A DNA stretch of 64,000 nucleotides, taken from Chitinophaga vietnamensis. GTDB taxonomy: Bacteria; Bacteroidota; Bacteroidia; Chitinophagales; Chitinophagaceae. This document shows positions 56,365-63,211 of the stretch, in pieces. A program made the position numbers and the translations under genes. The notes beneath the pieces are model-generated. The model was not told the DNA's origin and ran no database searches. It saw only the letters and a list, made by a program, of their open reading frames with translations. The stretch spans positions 310,001 through 374,000 of the forward strand of contig NZ_CABHMS010000006.1 of assembly GCF_902167635.1 (NCBI RefSeq). Reading direction: 5' to 3'. Numbering within the stretch: the first letter of the stretch is position 1; every line of letters begins with the position of its first letter.

Positions 56365-56892
56365 ATGTTTATGGAAAAATATCAGGCCTGCATCTTATCA
56401 CAAATCTATTCTATGACGGATAATTATAACTGCCAGTCGCTCAACCACGATGACACCTTTATCCTGAAAAGTAATCTTGCCGCCAAGTACAACCAAATTA
56501 GCAAGATGTCTTTATTCTTTGGCGGTATTACGCTCTTCGGTTTCTTTCTTATCATGTTGCGCATCCAGTCTTTACAGCCAGGATACTTTTTTCTGGCCGT
56601 AGCGGTATTGTACTGTTCCTTCTTTCTTGCCTTCTGGTTCAGCACCATCGCGCGTTTGAAGCGGGACCTGAAAGAAAAGAAAAAAATAGTGCTCACGACG
56701 AGGATTAAAAATAAATCCAGCACCAATGAACTGGGTATCAGGGAACATTACCTGTTGCTGGAAGACAATCCATTTGGATTGAAGAAGATAGATGTAACGC
56801 CGGAGATATTTGCCCGGATACCATTGCACACGGAGCTGAAGATCACTGCAACCCTGCATTCCGGTACTTTTCTGCAATGCGAGATGGAATAA
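56365..56892 (+). CDS. small two-helix membrane protein of unknown function
   Basis: 175 residues (159 if translation begins at the Met at 56413, which leaves more room for a promoter in the narrow divergent gap). Two adjacent hydrophobic segments (MSLFFGGITLFGFFLIML and FFLAVAVLYCSFFLAFW) are followed by a basic stretch LKRDLKEKKKI and a soluble C-terminal domain of about 75 residues. No family recognised. Confidence 0.65.
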   Translation: MFMEKYQACILSQIYSMTDNYNCQSLNHDDTFILKSNLAAKYNQISKMSLFFGGITLFGFFLIMLRIQSLQPGYFFLAVAVLYCSFFLAFWFSTIARLKRDLKEKKKIVLTTRIKNKSSTNELGIREHYLLLEDNPFGLKKIDVTPEIFARIPLHTELKITATLHSGTFLQCEME

Positions 56893-56908
56893 CGTAAACG
56901 GTTATACG

Positions 56909-57310
56909 CTATTTTATTTCGAATGAGAGTACACAATATTTGTCGATGGTGGGTGATACCTTGATGTAAATGGTATGCTTGCCATTACGTAAGGTGGTGG
57001 CAGGCGGTAAGGGTGGCGTGCCACAATAACCCATGGGAACGATGGTCCTGTCGGCATCGGCATTGCCGGAAGCGGAGAGCAATGCGCTGTTACCCATCAC
57101 GTAGATACTGTCGATCGGAAAGTAGTTGGTGGTAACATTTTGCGGCAGCCTGCCGATATCCAGATTACCGATCTTCAGGTTACTGAACCAGGATTCGCTC
57201 TTATTTACAAATCTCACCATCAGGGGGCCTGACTGGCTCTCATGGTCTTTTTTGCAGGCGATGAAAAGCGCGGCTACTGCGATACAGAAAAGGCATAAAG
57301 ATCGCTTCAT
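56909..57310 (-). CDS. lipoprotein of unknown function
   Basis: 133-residue predicted lipoprotein: the lipobox VAALFIAC gives Cys near 19, followed by Lys-Lys-Asp, an outer-membrane sorting context. The mature part (about 28-130) is beta-rich, with VRFVNKSESWFSNLKIGNLD and GKHTIYIKVSP reminiscent of DUF4397-like Ig folds, which I cannot confirm. It lies downstream of the YwqK-like gene on the same strand (61-nt gap). Confidence 0.65.
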   Translation of the reverse strand: MKRSLCLFCIAVAALFIACKKDHESQSGPLMVRFVNKSESWFSNLKIGNLDIGRLPQNVTTNYFPIDSIYVMGNSALLSASGNADADRTIVPMGYCGTPPLPPATTLRNGKHTIYIKVSPTIDKYCVLSFEIK

Positions 57311-57370
57311 GGAAAAGTGATTTATCGTGAAGCGCGTTAGTGTCCTGGTTTGTTACACGACAAGTTAAGC

Positions 57371-57733
57371 CTATTCTGTAGGGGGCAGAAAGTCTTTTCG
57401 TTTGGGTGGACTTTCTTTATCCGGCACATAATACAATACTTCATCGAGCTTGTCGAAAATGTATTTGAAAGTAGCGAGGTGTTCTTCCTCAGAAGAAAAG
57501 AACTTCGCCTGTCCATGCAGCCTGTTTTGCTCGAAAGTCAGGATCATGCGGAGTTTGCCGGCATCATCAAAAAAATATCCGCGGCCCTGCCTGGCGCCGT
57601 GTACATATTGCACAGATCTTTTCAGCAACTTGTTTTCATAACAATGCCAGAAACCTTCCCGCAATCCGTTTTGCTCATATCCCGCCCAGAGTTGCTCCTG
57701 CTGCGGTACTGTACGGAAATTGTATTCGTTCAT
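57371..57733 (-). CDS. YwqK/MORN-repeat protein, possible immunity partner of the DUF4157 protein
   Basis: 120-residue soluble protein without a signal peptide. Short repeating units such as GLREGFWHCYENK, GARQGRGYFFDDAGKLR and RLHGQAKFFSSEEEH match the MORN-like repeats of YwqK proteins, which are known as antitoxins/immunity proteins for secreted toxins in Bacillus-type systems. It begins 6 nt after the stop codon of the DUF4157 gene, so the two form an operon. Immunity is an inference from this pairing; MORN repeats also occur in unrelated scaffolds. Confidence 0.72.
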   Translation of the reverse strand: MNEYNFRTVPQQEQLWAGYEQNGLREGFWHCYENKLLKRSVQYVHGARQGRGYFFDDAGKLRMILTFEQNRLHGQAKFFSSEEEHLATFKYIFDKLDEVLYYVPDKESPPKRKDFLPPTE

Positions 57734-57739
57734 AGCTGT

Positions 57740-58945
57740 TTATCTGACGATCTTGAGTTCTGATTTGATAATATTTTCTTTTGTTGCCCCGGCTACGATC
57801 GGTTGCGTGAAGATGTATTTCACATCGGTGAAATCAAAATAGTAATCGATAGAGCCATCGTTGGAGCCGTTTACTTTCCTGGTGCTTTCGTCAAATCCTT
57901 CGCCTATATATTTGATCGTTTTGGTAGGATAGGTTTCTTTCAGGAATTTTTCCTGTGATTCATGCCCGGCCTGGTGTGCCTTTTTAAAGTCGTCTTTAGA
58001 AGCGCTGGCTTTGTTCTTTTCATAATCTTTGATGGCAAATCTTTCCACCACGAAATGCAGGAACCAGCTTCTGAAGATGGGCGATGAAAGATTGAGGGTA
58101 TCATCGGTATCTACATCTCCGGTGGCGAAGCTGTCGATGAACTTGGTATCTGATTTCGGGATAAGGTTCAGATTAACGGTTTGTGCGTCGTTAATGGCTT
58201 CGAGCATTTTTTTGGCATATTCATCTTTGCCGGTAGCTTTGGGATCGGTGGCTTTAATGTTACCGTCGGCTTCCATTTCCATTGCTACGCTGGAGCCATC
58301 GTTCATTTTGGCGAGGAACTTTTTGCGGGTCGCTTCGTCGGTGCCGGTGAGTTTCATTTTCCGCTGGATGCCAGTACCGCCGCCGCTTTGCTGTATCACA
58401 TGCGTAAGCTCATGTGCCAGCAGGTGTTTGCCTTCATTGGATTCAGGTGCAAAGCGGCCGCTGTTGAAATAGATGTCCTTACCTACCGTGAAGGCTTCCG
58501 CTTGCAGGTCGTCCGACAGCCGGGTGGCGTAAGACCCGGTGTGGATACGTACATCTACAAAGCTTTCGCCGAAGCGGCTTTCCATGAAATCGCGGGTGCC
58601 TTCCGGCAGGGGATGCCCGCCACCGCGAGAGCTGTCGATAGCGCTGGAAGTAGCATCACTGGCGGGTGCTGATCCGCCGGCAGCCTGACGTTGGATAAAT
58701 CCGGGCTGCGGGCTGCGCTGGGCCAGGTTTTCCTCTTCTTCACAATGTGCGCATTTTCTTTGTATCAGGCCTGGTTGGGGCATGCGCATGATATGATCCG
58801 CCGTGGCATCGGCTTGCGTTTCCTGGGCGGCATTTGCCCGACTGGTAGCGGATTTGCGGCGAAGGATGTTGTTGGCCACATGACTGCTGCTGCTGTTGGA
58901 AGAGGCTTCCTCACGCCGGCGCGCATAAACATTTGAGGTGCTCAT
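57740..58945 (-). CDS. DUF4157 (eCIS-core) protein with an HExxH motif and an unknown C-terminal domain
   Basis: 401 residues from the Met at 58945 (MSTSNVYARRREEAS); an in-frame Met seven codons upstream is less likely. The N-terminal 110 residues are low-complexity with the paired phrases QPGLIQRK and QPGFIQRQ around a CAHC motif, typical of DUF4157 proteins. The DUF4157 core (about 112-190) ends in LLAHELTHVIQQ, with His178-Glu-Leu-Thr-His182 as a zincin-like site. DUF4157 marks cargo or associated proteins of extracellular contractile injection systems. The last 200 residues are unlike any family I recognise and contain a His/Glu-rich helix (KKAHQAGHESQEKF). No injection-system genes are in this window. 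Confidence 0.88.
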   Translation of the reverse strand: MSTSNVYARRREEASSNSSSSHVANNILRRKSATSRANAAQETQADATADHIMRMPQPGLIQRKCAHCEEEENLAQRSPQPGFIQRQAAGGSAPASDATSSAIDSSRGGGHPLPEGTRDFMESRFGESFVDVRIHTGSYATRLSDDLQAEAFTVGKDIYFNSGRFAPESNEGKHLLAHELTHVIQQSGGGTGIQRKMKLTGTDEATRKKFLAKMNDGSSVAMEMEADGNIKATDPKATGKDEYAKKMLEAINDAQTVNLNLIPKSDTKFIDSFATGDVDTDDTLNLSSPIFRSWFLHFVVERFAIKDYEKNKASASKDDFKKAHQAGHESQEKFLKETYPTKTIKYIGEGFDESTRKVNGSNDGSIDYYFDFTDVKYIFTQPIVAGATKENIIKSELKIVR

Positions 58946-58989
58946 AAACAAGGGGTTTGGGGTCAATAACTTTATTTACTAAAGTTAAG

Positions 58990-59016
58990 ATAATCCCTGC
59001 GGAAAGAGGGGATTAT
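58990..59016. terminator. hairpin next to the island's outer att copy
   Basis: ATAATCCC / GGGATTAT with an 11-nt loop, followed by TTTTC on the plus strand. It lies between the DUF4157 promoter region and the tRNA fragment; it may be the ancestral tRNA-Thr terminator displaced by the insertion. Confidence 0.5.
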
Positions 59017-59034
59017 TTTCGGGCGATATACTAC

Positions 59035-59083
59035 TGAGCCAACCATGGGACTCGAACCCACGACCTGTTATTTACGAAACAAC
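59035..59083 (-). pseudogene. 3' fragment of tRNA-Thr(CGT); distal attachment-site copy
   Basis: 49 nt identical to 62499-62547. They contain the 3' 47 nt of the intact tRNA-Thr (anticodon arm, variable region, T arm, acceptor 3' strand and discriminator) in the same orientation. The identity stops at the 5' end of the anticodon stem, and the following DNA is unrelated to a tRNA, so the piece is not functional. Confidence 0.93.
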
Positions 59084-59490: not shown

Positions 59491-60015
59491 ATGAAAAGTA
59501 AATTTCCTTTGTATCTATTTCTTTTTGTTATGATCTGCATGGCAATAAATGCCTGTCGAGATAAGAACCAGGTAGCCCCGCAAGATTCTATCATTGGCCG
59601 AATAGAGGGCAACAGTATTACTGCTATTCCATCCAACGATATGCTTCCGGAAGCTATAGGGGTGAAATATATAGCATTTGTCAAACAAAACTTGCAGGCC
59701 GAGCATTTCCGCGTTATAAACAAATCTGTTATTAAAGCAGACAACTTTTATTATTTAAAGACCACAGTTGAAACCAGTTCCTCTAAGGTAAGAGATGTCT
59801 ATGTTTCCCTTAAGCAACTTAGTGGTACAAATTCATTGGCTGCAGATACAACCATTGTTACCTGTGAGGCGATGACTTGCAACCAATGTGGCATTTATCT
59901 CAACCGAGTGACAGGTGTTATATCTTGTGTGTGCGGATTCCCAAACGGAGGAACTTGTAAAAAAATCGTTACAGCCCCCCCAAAAGATACGCCCAATATA
60001 GCTGCTTTACATTAA
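59491..60015 (+). CDS. six-cysteine lipoprotein, copy 1 (unknown family)
   Basis: 174-residue predicted lipoprotein; MAINACRDK places the lipidated Cys near residue 22. About 100 residues of mixed alpha/beta sequence (IGVKYIAFVKQNLQAEHF, then VIKADNFYYLKTTVE) precede a cysteine-rich tail: C-x4-C-x2-C-x12-C-x-C-x7-C, ending KIVTAPPKDT. The next gene encodes a paralogue of identical length with the same cysteine order and the same tail word. Six closely spaced cysteines outside the cytoplasm suggest disulfides or a metal site; the TlpA-type thioredoxin encoded downstream could serve them. I cannot name a family. Confidence 0.8.
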   Translation: MKSKFPLYLFLFVMICMAINACRDKNQVAPQDSIIGRIEGNSITAIPSNDMLPEAIGVKYIAFVKQNLQAEHFRVINKSVIKADNFYYLKTTVETSSSKVRDVYVSLKQLSGTNSLAADTTIVTCEAMTCNQCGIYLNRVTGVISCVCGFPNGGTCKKIVTAPPKDTPNIAALH

Positions 60016-60031
60016 TTAACCCTTAAAAAAT

Positions 60032-60556
60032 ATGCAAATGAAACCTCCTCTAATTATTGCTTTATTTTTAATGCTAACCGTGGTAATACTGTTGAGCTGC
60101 CAGAAACAAATGATCCCATCTAAGCAAGAAGGTTTAGCAATGGAAACAAATGGGAAGCTCATTGAAAATGAGATTTCGCTACACTCGTTGAAAGATCAGC
60201 TTGGAGCCGGATATGCAAGATTTATCAGAGAGAATTTTACACAAAAAGACTTTGAAATTATTGACAAAAAGGTTATCAAGGGAAAGTATCACTATTATCT
60301 TATGACAAGGGCACAGATAGATGCAAATAATACGGTAGATATTTACACTGAGCTGGTTAAAAGGGGAAATGAACTAAGCCTTGTCTCCATGGCTTCAGAT
60401 TCCACTATTCACTACAATTGCACAAGAGTAAACTGTAGTGGCTGTAAATTTGATATTAACTCTCAATCTGCTTTATGTTATTGCCCGGACCCAGACAATT
60501 CAAAGGTCTGTAAGTTGATTGTCACGACTCCCCCTAAAGATACCATTAAGCCATAA
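60032..60556 (+). CDS. six-cysteine lipoprotein, copy 2 (paralogue of the preceding gene)
   Basis: 174-residue predicted lipoprotein (VVILLSCQK, Cys near 23), 16 nt after its paralogue. It aligns along its length with copy 1: LGAGYARFIRENFTQKDF corresponds to IGVKYIAFVKQNLQAEHF. The tail has C-x4-C-x2-C-x10-C-x-C-x8-C followed by KLIVTTPPKDT. The two have diverged strongly apart from the cysteines and the PPKDT end, so the conserved features are the likely functional ones. A 14-bp hairpin follows in the gap to the next gene. Confidence 0.8.
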   Translation: MQMKPPLIIALFLMLTVVILLSCQKQMIPSKQEGLAMETNGKLIENEISLHSLKDQLGAGYARFIRENFTQKDFEIIDKKVIKGKYHYYLMTRAQIDANNTVDIYTELVKRGNELSLVSMASDSTIHYNCTRVNCSGCKFDINSQSALCYCPDPDNSKVCKLIVTTPPKDTIKP

Positions 60557-60566
60557 GATAAGTATT

Positions 60567-60608
60567 TCCAACACAGTACTGTTTCTTTGTCATAAGTACT
60601 GTGTTGGA
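60567..60608 (+). repeat. 14-bp perfect hairpin inside the island operon
   Basis: TCCAACACAGTACT (60567-60580) pairs with AGTACTGTGTTGGA (60595-60608) around a 14-nt loop. No T run follows, so it is more likely an mRNA processing or stabilising element between cistrons than a full terminator. Confidence 0.75.
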
Positions 60609-60625
60609 GTATAAACTGCGATTCA

Positions 60626-61099
60626 ATGAAAATGAAATCACCTATTCGTCAACTCATTGGAATAATAGTCTTATTTACTGCCTTGATAATAGCTTCGTGC
60701 TCTCAGCACAGCAAATCTCGTGTACCTATAACAGAATACAGTTTTCCATCACTGACAAACGATATCAAACAGGACTCTGAACATCTTCCAGCAATAAAAT
60801 TTAGAGAATATTCTTATAACTTCGGAAATGTAAAGAAGGGGGCAAAATTGGTTCATATCTTCAGATTTGTAAACAATGGGGCAGCTCCTGTCGTAATTAA
60901 TGACATTAAAGCTCACTGTGGGTGCGTTGTAACCAATTTTAGCAAAGAACCGGTTAACAAAGGAGATTCTGGAAGCGTGGAGATATCGATTAAAACTGGA
61001 GATTTATCCGGACAAATAGAAAAAGTAATCAGTGTCTTTAGTAATACTGCTCCTGTTCAAACCGATCTGTTTGTCCAATCTGAAATCAGAAATGAATAG
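60626..61099 (+). CDS. DUF1573-domain lipoprotein
   Basis: 157-residue predicted lipoprotein (IIASCSQ, Cys near 25). The domain from about 55 to 150 matches DUF1573, an Ig/ASPM-like fold: IKFREYSYNFGNVKKGAKL, then FRFVNNGAAPVVINDIKAHCGCVV, with the family's paired Cys in HCGC. DUF1573 proteins are common in Bacteroidota beside thioredoxin-like and peptide-associated genes. The following TlpA-type gene starts inside its last codons (ATG at 61092, stop at 61097-61099), an 8-nt overlap that indicates translational coupling. Confidence 0.88.
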   Translation: MKMKSPIRQLIGIIVLFTALIIASCSQHSKSRVPITEYSFPSLTNDIKQDSEHLPAIKFREYSYNFGNVKKGAKLVHIFRFVNNGAAPVVINDIKAHCGCVVTNFSKEPVNKGDSGSVEISIKTGDLSGQIEKVISVFSNTAPVQTDLFVQSEIRNE

Positions 61100-62297
61100 C
61101 TGGCAAAATATGATATCAAAGTGGTTTGTAATTGTTGCCTACCTAATTGGAATAGGTATGGGGGAATGTCGTGCGAGAACACAAAATGAAATCGAAGGAC
61201 GCGCATGGCTTGAGAAATGTCACCAGCGCCTGAAAGGCGTTCGCAGTGGTTCATTTAATGTTTTTGTAAAGAACAAGATGATATTAACACCAGATACTGT
61301 CAGAGCCAGTGCAGTATGCGTTTTCAAGAATGAAGGCAATAAACGTTATATATATATCCAAAAAAGTGACGATAGTTCTTTTCTTATTTCATCCCCCAAG
61401 TCGTTGATTTTGGGAACGCCTGGGACAAAACAGGCTGTTAGCTTTAACATACGTCAACAGCAAGCGCCTGACGCGCTGTCTAATGTGTTTCATGACCTTT
61501 TCTTTGAACCATTACTGACCGATAGCTTTTATAGTAGAATATTGAACAATGCAAATATTAAAATATATGTCGAGCGTAACGGGACCCGAACAATCTTATT
61601 GAAAGTCAGCTACCCGGATCGAGGTGACGTAACCCGTATGTATAGTCTTTTAACGATCGATAAAGAGGAGTTGTTAATAACAAAAGAAATTTTTTTTGCA
61701 AATGCTTTTAATGATCAACAAATCACGGAGGTAAGCATACATCATCCAAGATTGAACCATGCGCACATAAATGACAATCTATTTGATATAGACTATCAGC
61801 TGGCAAAGAATCGTTTGCAACTCAGGTCTTTGGAAGAACTATACAAAGAGAATGATCCAGGTCTGACACTTACATCCGGAAATCCTGCACCAGCCTGGAG
61901 CCTTACTAATGTTGACAAAAAGGTGTTTCAACTGGATGATTATCGCCGCAAGATCATTATACTTGACTTTTGGTATATGTCATGTTATCCATGCCTCAAA
62001 ACAATTCCGGTTTTGAATCAGCTTTATCAAAAATATAAGGCTGGGGACAAGATAGAAGTACTTAGCATAAATACCGACAAAAAGCATACAGAGTTACTAC
62101 CAGGATTTATTGATAGTAAGCACATAAAGTACCCCGTGTTGCTTGGCGGTGACACTATCGCGCACGAATATCATGTTAGATCATATCCAACTCTATTTAT
62201 TATTAACAAGGGCATTATTGCCCATGTTGAAGAGGGATATTATGATGGGCTTTTAGAGAAGATAAGCCGTATAGTTGATTCTCTACTAACAAAATGA
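61092..62297 (+). CDS. TlpA-family thiol-disulfide oxidoreductase with large N-terminal domain
   Basis: Exported redox protein of about 401 residues from the ATG at 61092 (an upstream GTG at 61032 lies within the DUF1573 gene). A hydrophobic segment WFVIVAYLIGIGMG (about 11-24) is the signal or anchor. The middle region (about 35-260) resembles outer-membrane lipoprotein-sorting-like folds but is not assigned. The C-terminal thioredoxin domain (about 265-400) has ILDFWYMSCYPCLKTIPVL with a CYPC active site, then RSYPTLFIINKG with the cis-Pro loop. It is the likely thiol reductant or isomerase for the island's cysteine-rich lipoproteins, an inference from operon structure. Confidence 0.87.
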   Translation: MNSWQNMISKWFVIVAYLIGIGMGECRARTQNEIEGRAWLEKCHQRLKGVRSGSFNVFVKNKMILTPDTVRASAVCVFKNEGNKRYIYIQKSDDSSFLISSPKSLILGTPGTKQAVSFNIRQQQAPDALSNVFHDLFFEPLLTDSFYSRILNNANIKIYVERNGTRTILLKVSYPDRGDVTRMYSLLTIDKEELLITKEIFFANAFNDQQITEVSIHHPRLNHAHINDNLFDIDYQLAKNRLQLRSLEELYKENDPGLTLTSGNPAPAWSLTNVDKKVFQLDDYRRKIIILDFWYMSCYPCLKTIPVLNQLYQKYKAGDKIEVLSINTDKKHTELLPGFIDSKHIKYPVLLGGDTIAHEYHVRSYPTLFIINKGIIAHVEEGYYDGLLEKISRIVDSLLTK

Positions 62298-62500
62298 GAA
62301 CCGATTGTTTATATTTTTGAGATTAATTAGTTACCGTTATTCACTAAAAAACTCTTTCATATCGACTCCAAGGGCACTAATTACGCTATCTCTGAATTTT
62401 GGGTTAATGCAAGTCTTTCACATGAAAAAGTGTATCAAATCACGTATCAAGTAAATCCGTTTGAAAAACGATTATCCTCATAACTAGTTCACTTCCATTG
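62298..62500. other. non-coding right end of the island
   Basis: 203 nt between the TlpA-type gene and the tRNA. A frame open from 62331 to the stop at 62481-62483 lacks a normal start and may be a gene relic. GTATCAA occurs twice about 15 nt apart near 62430-62450. No integrase remnant was recognised. Confidence 0.35.
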
Positions 62501-62573
62501 AGCCAACCATGGGACTCGAACCCACGACCTGTTATTTACGAAACAACTGCTCTACCGACTAAGCTAGGTTGGC
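62501..62573 (-). tRNA. tRNA-Thr (anticodon CGT)
   Basis: A 73-nt cloverleaf can be folded by hand: acceptor GCCAACC/GGTTGGC with discriminator T, TA linker, D stem GCTT/GAGC, anticodon stem GTTGT/ATAAC with loop TTCGTAA (anticodon CGT, reads ACG), variable AGGTC, T stem GTGGG/CCCAT with loop TTCGAGT. CCA is not encoded. Its 3' part is supplied by the island's att copy, and the original 3' end lies at 59035-59083. Confidence 0.95.
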
Positions 62574-62614: not shown

Positions 62615-63211
62615 TCAATGCATCGCCGGTTCGTGTATGGTCAAAAGTGGGCTTGTTTGTTCTTCCTTCAGCAGAGGGTCGAACAACATGGCAGTACAAA
62701 GGCAGTTTTTGAATCCTTTGGCCACCAGCACAGGATAGTTTACGCAACTCTTACAGCCATCCCAGAATTGTGGGTCGTGCGTGATCTCGTTATAAGTGAC
62801 CGGCTCAAAACCCAGGCGGCTGTTCAGTTTCATCACGGGCAGGCCGGTAGTGATACTGAATATTTTTGCAGATGGATACAGCAGGCGGCTCAGTTCAAAT
62901 ATTTTTTGCTTGATGGCCGCCGCCACTTTTTTACCGCGGAAATTGGGAGAAACGATCAATCCGCTGTTGGATACGAACTCGCCGTTTTCCCAGGACTGGA
63001 TATAGGAAAATCCCGCCCATACTCCCTCGCGGCTGAAGGCAATCACCGCTTTTCCTTCCAGTATCTTTTTCCTGATATCAGCAGGATTTCTTTTGGAGAT
63101 GCCGGTGCCCCGTGCTTTTGCAGAGGCTTCCATCTCTGCTACGATCGGTATTGCAAAATCAACGTCTGTGGCTACTGCCAACCTGACGACGATGTCATCA
63201 TCTGTTTCCAT
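62615..63211 (-). CDS. GNAT-family N-acetyltransferase (arginine-cluster type)
   Basis: 198-residue acetyltransferase. Core motifs are SNSGLIVSPNFRGKKVAAAIK (acetyl-CoA loop) and FSITTGLPVMKLNSRLGFEP. The phrases EMEASAKARGTGISKR and FWDGCKSCVNYPVL...KNCLCTAML, with clustered cysteines, are to my knowledge those of the GNAT encoded in arginine-biosynthesis clusters of Bacteroidota, where it is thought to be an N-acetylglutamate synthase. No other arg gene lies in this window, so the role is tentative. Its ATG overlaps the stop codon of the upstream gene by 1 nt (TAATG). Confidence 0.85.
   Translation of the reverse strand: METDDDIVVRLAVATDVDFAIPIVAEMEASAKARGTGISKRNPADIRKKILEGKAVIAFSREGVWAGFSYIQSWENGEFVSNSGLIVSPNFRGKKVAAAIKQKIFELSRLLYPSAKIFSITTGLPVMKLNSRLGFEPVTYNEITHDPQFWDGCKSCVNYPVLVAKGFKNCLCTAMLFDPLLKEEQTSPLLTIHEPAMH

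Follow-up and report, generated by a model that had tools for sequence, protein, structure and literature searches.

A low-G+C island at a tRNA-Thr gene of Chitinophaga vietnamensis carries two orphan six-cysteine lipoproteins beside DUF1573 and TlpA-type genes

Results

Four genes between two copies of a tRNA 3' end

In a 64,000-nucleotide stretch of the Chitinophaga vietnamensis genome (contig NZ_CABHMS010000006.1, positions 310,001 to 374,000 of the forward strand; hereafter the window), we analysed a group of four genes encoding two related predicted lipoproteins with cysteine tails (P0001 and P0002), a DUF1573 lipoprotein (P0003) and a protein with a TlpA/ResA-type domain (P0004). The four open reading frames (ORFs), including the two 174-residue lipoproteins and the 8-nt overlap of the last two genes, lie where an earlier note on this DNA had placed them. 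The features of the locus are:

59035..59083, no strand assigned: left att-like copy of the tRNA-Thr 3' end, 49 bp, exact direct repeat
59491..60015, + strand: P0001, lipoprotein 1, 174 residues; lipobox-like INAC22 read by eye; tail cysteines C125, C130, C133, C146, C148 and C156
60032..60556, + strand: P0002, lipoprotein 2, 174 residues, paralogue of P0001; signal peptide ending in lipobox-like LLSC, lipid site C23 (by eye); tail cysteines C130, C135, C138, C149, C151 and C160
60567..60608, + strand: inverted repeat, a perfect hairpin with 14-bp arms, downstream of the two lipoprotein genes and upstream of the DUF1573 gene; not followed by a T-run
60626..61099, + strand: P0003, DUF1573 lipoprotein, 157 residues; HCGC (C98, C100); lipid site C25, lipobox by eye
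61092..62297, + strand: P0004, 401 residues; signal/anchor, N-terminal region that no Pfam family matches, then a TlpA/ResA-type domain at the C-terminus
62499..62547, no strand assigned: right 49-bp copy, exact direct repeat, within the intact tRNA gene
62500..62573, - strand: tRNA-Thr (anticodon CGT), one whole gene, the insertion site

The 3' end of the tRNA-Thr(CGT) gene is duplicated exactly (49/49 bp), with the two copies 3464 bp apart and an island of 3.46 kb between them; a third copy is absent from the window, even when up to 5/25 or 14/49 mismatches are allowed. The G+C content between the repeats is 0.369, against a mean of 0.488 outside (standard deviation 0.017, minimum 0.452; 557 overlapping windows of island length), so that the island falls 6.9 standard deviations below its surroundings. 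Its content is four co-directional genes on the + strand and, in the ORF list, nothing else plausible as coding; with the exact repeats, this bears out the earlier description of these genes as the whole cargo of a tRNA island. No recombinase- or integrase-like ORF was recognised inside the island from the ORF list and the Pfam results of the four proteins, no further integrase profile scan having been made. Of the marks of a tRNA island, we find a repeat at both ends, absence from the compared relatives and atypical composition, but not an integrase of its own. The four-gene segment is foreign-looking, AT-rich DNA inserted at a tRNA-Thr gene.

Three congeners (G314, G308 and G298) have the same tRNA between homologues of a TPR-protein gene and an acetyltransferase-like gene, and the island is missing from all three, although an exact empty junction is not demonstrable there because the genes at 56.4-59.0 kb of the window are missing as well. 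Across approximately 10-12 kb 3' of the tRNA in 20 further congeners, we found no second copy of the repeat (0/20), no ORF with a tyrosine-recombinase motif (0/20) and no similarity to the cargo (0/20). The compared congeners lack the island, which is therefore probably recent or rare. Its mobility today would need a recombinase supplied from elsewhere.

Two full-length paralogues with aligned cysteine tails

P0001 consists of a signal peptide, a predicted helix and beta-sheet body and a six-cysteine tail. It aligns with P0002 over the full length (BLASTP, 55/173 identical residues, 32%, E 3e-24) with six of six tail cysteines in register, and the two are therefore full-length paralogues. The earlier note had set conserved tails against an otherwise diverged remainder; the paralogy holds, but the contrast was overstated, as the tails alone reach only 42% identity. 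Both proteins match the pattern it had described, C-x4-C-x2-C-x10-12-C-x-C-x7-8-C, and both contain the motif IVTxPPKDT, although this is not the end of P0001, which continues for seven residues (PNIAALH). In a six-frame translation of the window the strict cysteine pattern is confined to these two genes. A relaxed pattern, applied to 7276 open frames from 254 loci, returned P0001, P0002 and one 70-residue frame in locus L065, which we take for a chance match.

No Pfam family matched either whole protein at E 1 or either tail at E 10, and the NCBIfam rows obtained for them had E 0.049 or worse, far under the cut-offs. By sequence, the only match to solved structures for A1 was LuxS (E 0.77), while a profile of the tails gave as its best match a disulfide-rich growth-factor-binding protein (E 0.027), with putidaredoxin (E 0.29) also among its weak matches, neither of them significant. 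The tail can be compared with the epidermal growth factor (EGF)-like domain in its cysteine spacing only: the C4-x-C5-x7-8-C6 spacing and a predicted tail hairpin resemble it, whereas the C2-C3 gap is shorter and no EGF-type Pfam family matched at E 10. The EGF-like domain pairs its cysteines 1-3, 2-4 and 5-6, and the structure models of the tails are of low confidence. For the body of P0001, small alpha+beta folds of the Cystatin-like or PepSY-like kind are at most a tentative comparison.

NVEALA-type peptide loci (PF14055) also encode cysteine-rich exported products in Bacteroidota, but P0001 and P0002 are 174-residue lipoproteins rather than short peptides, and, as the earlier note had observed, they contain no NVEALA motif and match neither PF14055 nor another Pfam family. 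Its further statement that NVEALA loci have DUF1573 and TlpA genes beside them found no support within seven genomes of one other family (PF14055 in 0/7), a limited check whose control was positive in 1/14 named genomes. A literature search on NVEALA returned nothing, and among the papers listed by combined searches none concerned this gene set.

Searches for relatives of the lipoproteins

A profile built from the two lipoproteins was run against 294 family, 60 genus and 395 class genomes, which are overlapping draws. The family search matched nine genomes at E <=0.01, namely the own genome and eight with weak rows (1.9e-4 to 0.00965); the genus search matched three, the own genome and two with weak rows; and the class search gave, at E 0.001, the own genome alone. 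Among the ten weak rows, one ORF was read closely (in locus L009, where a protein of 306 residues is matched from its signal peptide onwards) and another locus was read over its first 200 bases; all were included in the relaxed-pattern scan described above, which found the six-cysteine tail in none of these loci.

Tail-pattern scans yielded 87 stretches from genome contigs and 89 and 36 from viral contigs, with no relative among them, and a longer tail pattern gave 0 in the viral contigs. The IVTxPPKDT pattern, searched as DNA, drew 11 genome-contig and 26 viral-contig stretches, and none of the 37, all translated, encodes a six-cysteine tail; tblastn of P0002 against plasmids and phages returned nothing at E 0.1. 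These pattern and tblastn scans respond only to short exact peptides or to close identity, distant relatives could escape them, and metagenomes lay outside the search. Within the searches made, P0001 and P0002 have no convincing relative beyond their own genome, and they look like a new orphan lipoprotein family.

Which side of the envelope

One study (PMC5080379) gives the lipoprotein export signal after the lipid cysteine as K-(D/E)2 or Q-A-(D/E)2 in Capnocytophaga, and describes stretches such as SDDDD or SDDFE at this position in surface lipoproteins of Bacteroides and Flavobacterium. Residues +2 to +6 are RDKNQ in P0001, QKQMI in P0002 and SQHSK in P0003, none of which contains the paired acidic residues of that signal, defined as it is in families other than the host's. 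As no export signal follows the lipid cysteine, we place P0001-P0003 on the periplasmic side: that they face the periplasm rather than the cell surface is the likelier arrangement, a lean rather than a proof, and the 'surface' location assigned earlier to the lipoproteins is not upheld.

The DUF1573 and TlpA-type proteins

The earlier assignment of P0003 to DUF1573, with a CGC motif, is right: the protein scores 86.1 bits against PF07610 (gathering cut-off 26.1, E 1.7e-24). It does not reach the OS_HP2 (seleno)protein model NF041425 (61.6 vs 100 bits), and no solved structure matched it by sequence at 0.01. The tables of two reviews of prokaryotic selenoproteins include DUF1573 members with UGC replacing CGC (PMC9312934, PMC13188914), which suggests that the CGC cysteine is redox-type. 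The domain is very widespread, with at least one match in 193/195 family genomes. Two other DUF1573 genes of the own genome stand among genes read as housekeeping, and no TlpA-like ORF was recognised near them.

P0004, whose gene overlaps that of P0003 by 8 nt, was correctly described as TlpA-type with a CYPC active site (C298-Y-P-C301). Its domain matches PF00578 at 2.2e-16 (residues 263-378) and, among solved structures, ResA proteins, best 4nmu at 3.4e-15. The likeness to TlpA/ResA/CcmG-type oxidoreductases (PF00578, PF08534; PDB 4nmu, 1st9) covers residues 262-379, with CxxC followed by a YP-T loop; the protein differs from them in its CYPC active site and its long N-terminal region, the first 259 residues of which matched no Pfam family at E 5. 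A LolA-like character of this region was an impression only, without Pfam support. P0004 is filed here only as carrying a TlpA/ResA-type domain, as it fell short of the curated cut-off of every NCBIfam model that it matched, with no model for ResA, TlpA or DsbE passed (ResA NF002854, 74/170 bits; NF047696, 36.8/230; TIGR00385, 12.8/123.15). A second protein of the same architecture is encoded in the own genome (contig C4, L015:9164-10303, - strand), 26% identical over 376 columns that include the N-terminal region. In 12 neighbourhoods of 19.9 kb around P0004-like proteins, this paralogue included, no DUF1573-like or lipoprotein-like ORF was found (0/12).

DUF1573 is rarely beside TlpA

We counted as a pairing any thioredoxin-fold gene that was recognised no more than 1.5 kb from a DUF1573 gene and in the same orientation. 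At 40 well-scoring DUF1573 loci from the 195 family genomes, taken in rank order (skipping the rows of the own genome, G159:C72, G192:C3:540610, G153:C20 and G099:C3), there was no thioredoxin match anywhere in the stretch (0/40). Forty loci from 296 phylum genomes, 36 taken near rank order with already-seen rows skipped and four from lower ranks, gave 1/40, a thioredoxin of 105 residues encoded on the same strand at a distance of 1046 bp, plus an additional match on the opposite strand. The sensitivity of the script is incomplete, as it recognised the DUF1573 ORF itself in 36/40 family and 35/40 phylum loci. Among eight plasmid records with DUF1573 matches, four are annotated and list no TlpA, cysteine-rich or NVEALA gene near, the PLSDB gene tables being incomplete. 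The pairing seen here, in which P0003 differs from DUF1573 genes at the compared loci, is thus unusual and not a background habit.

Transcription signals and flanking genes

The hairpin at 60567-60608 has a folding energy of -23.2 kcal/mol (z -4.73 vs 200 shuffles) and is absent from the predicted terminator list; it could either uncouple the two gene pairs or set their ratio. Sigma-70-type promoters numbered 16 against 12.1 expected and terminators 3 against 2.9, and a Bacteroidota promoter pattern had no match. PADLOC gave nothing at E 0.1. In PHROGs, P0004 matched a thioredoxin family (0.0069), and P0002 and P0003 drew only weak rows (0.036-0.052).

Adjoining the left end of the island is a gene (57740-58966, - strand) for an eCIS_core domain protein (PF13699, 7.2e-32), the domain being a mark of extracellular contractile injection system cargo. 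The genes at 56.4-59.0 kb, this one included, look missing in the three congeners, though no repeat bounds the region; blastn places the TPR-protein gene homologue there 256-875 bp from the tRNA, where the window has 56365-59034. Beside the tRNA on the other side, 62615-63211 (- strand) encodes a protein that we read as acetyltransferase-like, although Pfam gave nothing for it at E 0.01. Many congeners have similar DNA at several sites, and the own genome has it at C1:967189-967653.

Discussion

We tentatively interpret the island as encoding periplasm-facing lipoproteins with disulfide-closed six-cysteine tails, for which the TlpA-DUF1573 pair would be the thiol-exchange equipment, with somewhat less than even confidence. 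P0001 and P0002 would be the functional product, predicted to bind a ligand, each combining a small body of helix and sheet with a tail in which the six cysteines pair as three disulfides; we infer the disulfides because the cysteines are even in number and their fixed spacing was kept while two thirds of the residues changed. P0004 would exchange thiols directly through its CYPC site, and P0003 may relay to the tails, or hold them, through its redox-type CGC pair, so that the two proteins would correct or reduce mispaired tail cysteines as maturation equipment, with electrons drawn from a putative inner-membrane donor of the host's own. A redox enzyme serving cysteine-rich lipoproteins, as proposed in the earlier note, thus remains the best model once the word 'surface' is dropped; gene content, cysteines and domains are observed here, and the cellular location, the disulfides and the service itself are inferred.

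In favour of this interpretation are the same-strand gene order with its 8-nt overlap and the confinement of the genes to one island missing in the compared relatives. Moreover, the rarity of DUF1573-TlpA adjacency, together with the cysteine-rich proteins beside it, favours a dedicated functional set over background. The alignment of all six tail cysteines, the DUF1573 and ResA matches, the redox-type cysteine indicated by the selenoprotein tables and the missing export signal also speak for it. Several observations weigh against it. There is no second example of the module to confirm that the set travels together and no homologous operon, so the shared location in one island could be accidental, and the 19.9 kb scanned around the P0004-type protein elsewhere in the genome contain neither a DUF1573-like nor a six-cysteine gene. 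The hairpin stands between the two lipoprotein genes and the two redox genes, and these pairs may be transcribed separately. The predicted structures are poor (predicted local distance difference test scores of 61.9 for P0001, 37.7-44.4 for the other four models and 49.7 for P0002).

The tails might instead be metal sites that bind zinc, copper or iron through CxxC and CxC pairs, which DUF1573 and TlpA would keep reduced for metal loading. Such pairs are usual metal ligands, TlpA/ResA/CcmG-type enzymes are usually reductases, and the six cysteines are conserved between P0001 and P0002; but no metal-protein profile matched, neither putidaredoxin (E 0.29) nor the disulfide-rich protein (0.027) was a significant match of the tail profile, and neither a histidine-rich stretch nor a transporter or regulator for metals occurs in the island, all of which leaves metal binding somewhat unlikely. 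Unlinked cargo, in which chance alone brought the two orphan lipoproteins into one island with a general periplasmic redox pair that serves some other purpose, is consistent with the hairpin parting the two gene pairs, with the lack of a relative bearing the same set and with the related TlpA in the own genome that stands without such neighbours. We nevertheless consider it rather unlikely, since all four genes run in one direction with nothing else in 3.4 kb, and cysteine-rich proteins beside thiol-exchange proteins, in an adjacency rare elsewhere, would be a meaningful coincidence.

A redox sensor, in which a DUF1573/TlpA relay would set the tails to an oxidised or a reduced state and the tails would signal envelope stress or act on a partner, seems very improbable to us: the CGC pair is redox-type in selenoprotein relatives and the extra N-terminal region of P0004 could take an input, but the island contains no regulator, sigma/anti-sigma pair or kinase. 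Bolder than the maturation model, and improbable as a whole, is the proposal of a mobile cargo type not described before: paralogous lipoproteins with redox-switchable cysteine tails and a dedicated DUF1573-TlpA relay, carried in an integrase-less tRNA island moved by an outside recombinase, the lipoproteins being sensors or receptors whose ligand binding would vary with the oxidation or reduction of the tail.

TlpA proteins, DUF1573 proteins and tRNA islands are all familiar, and what the locus offers is orphan lipoproteins in an unusual, not categorically new, setting. The orphan lipoproteins would define a new family. Despite its very common occurrence in Bacteroidota, PF07610 is still described in Pfam as of 'unknown function', and the four-gene island is a minimal genetic setting in which to test DUF1573 as a periplasmic thiol carrier and to learn what DUF1573 serves.

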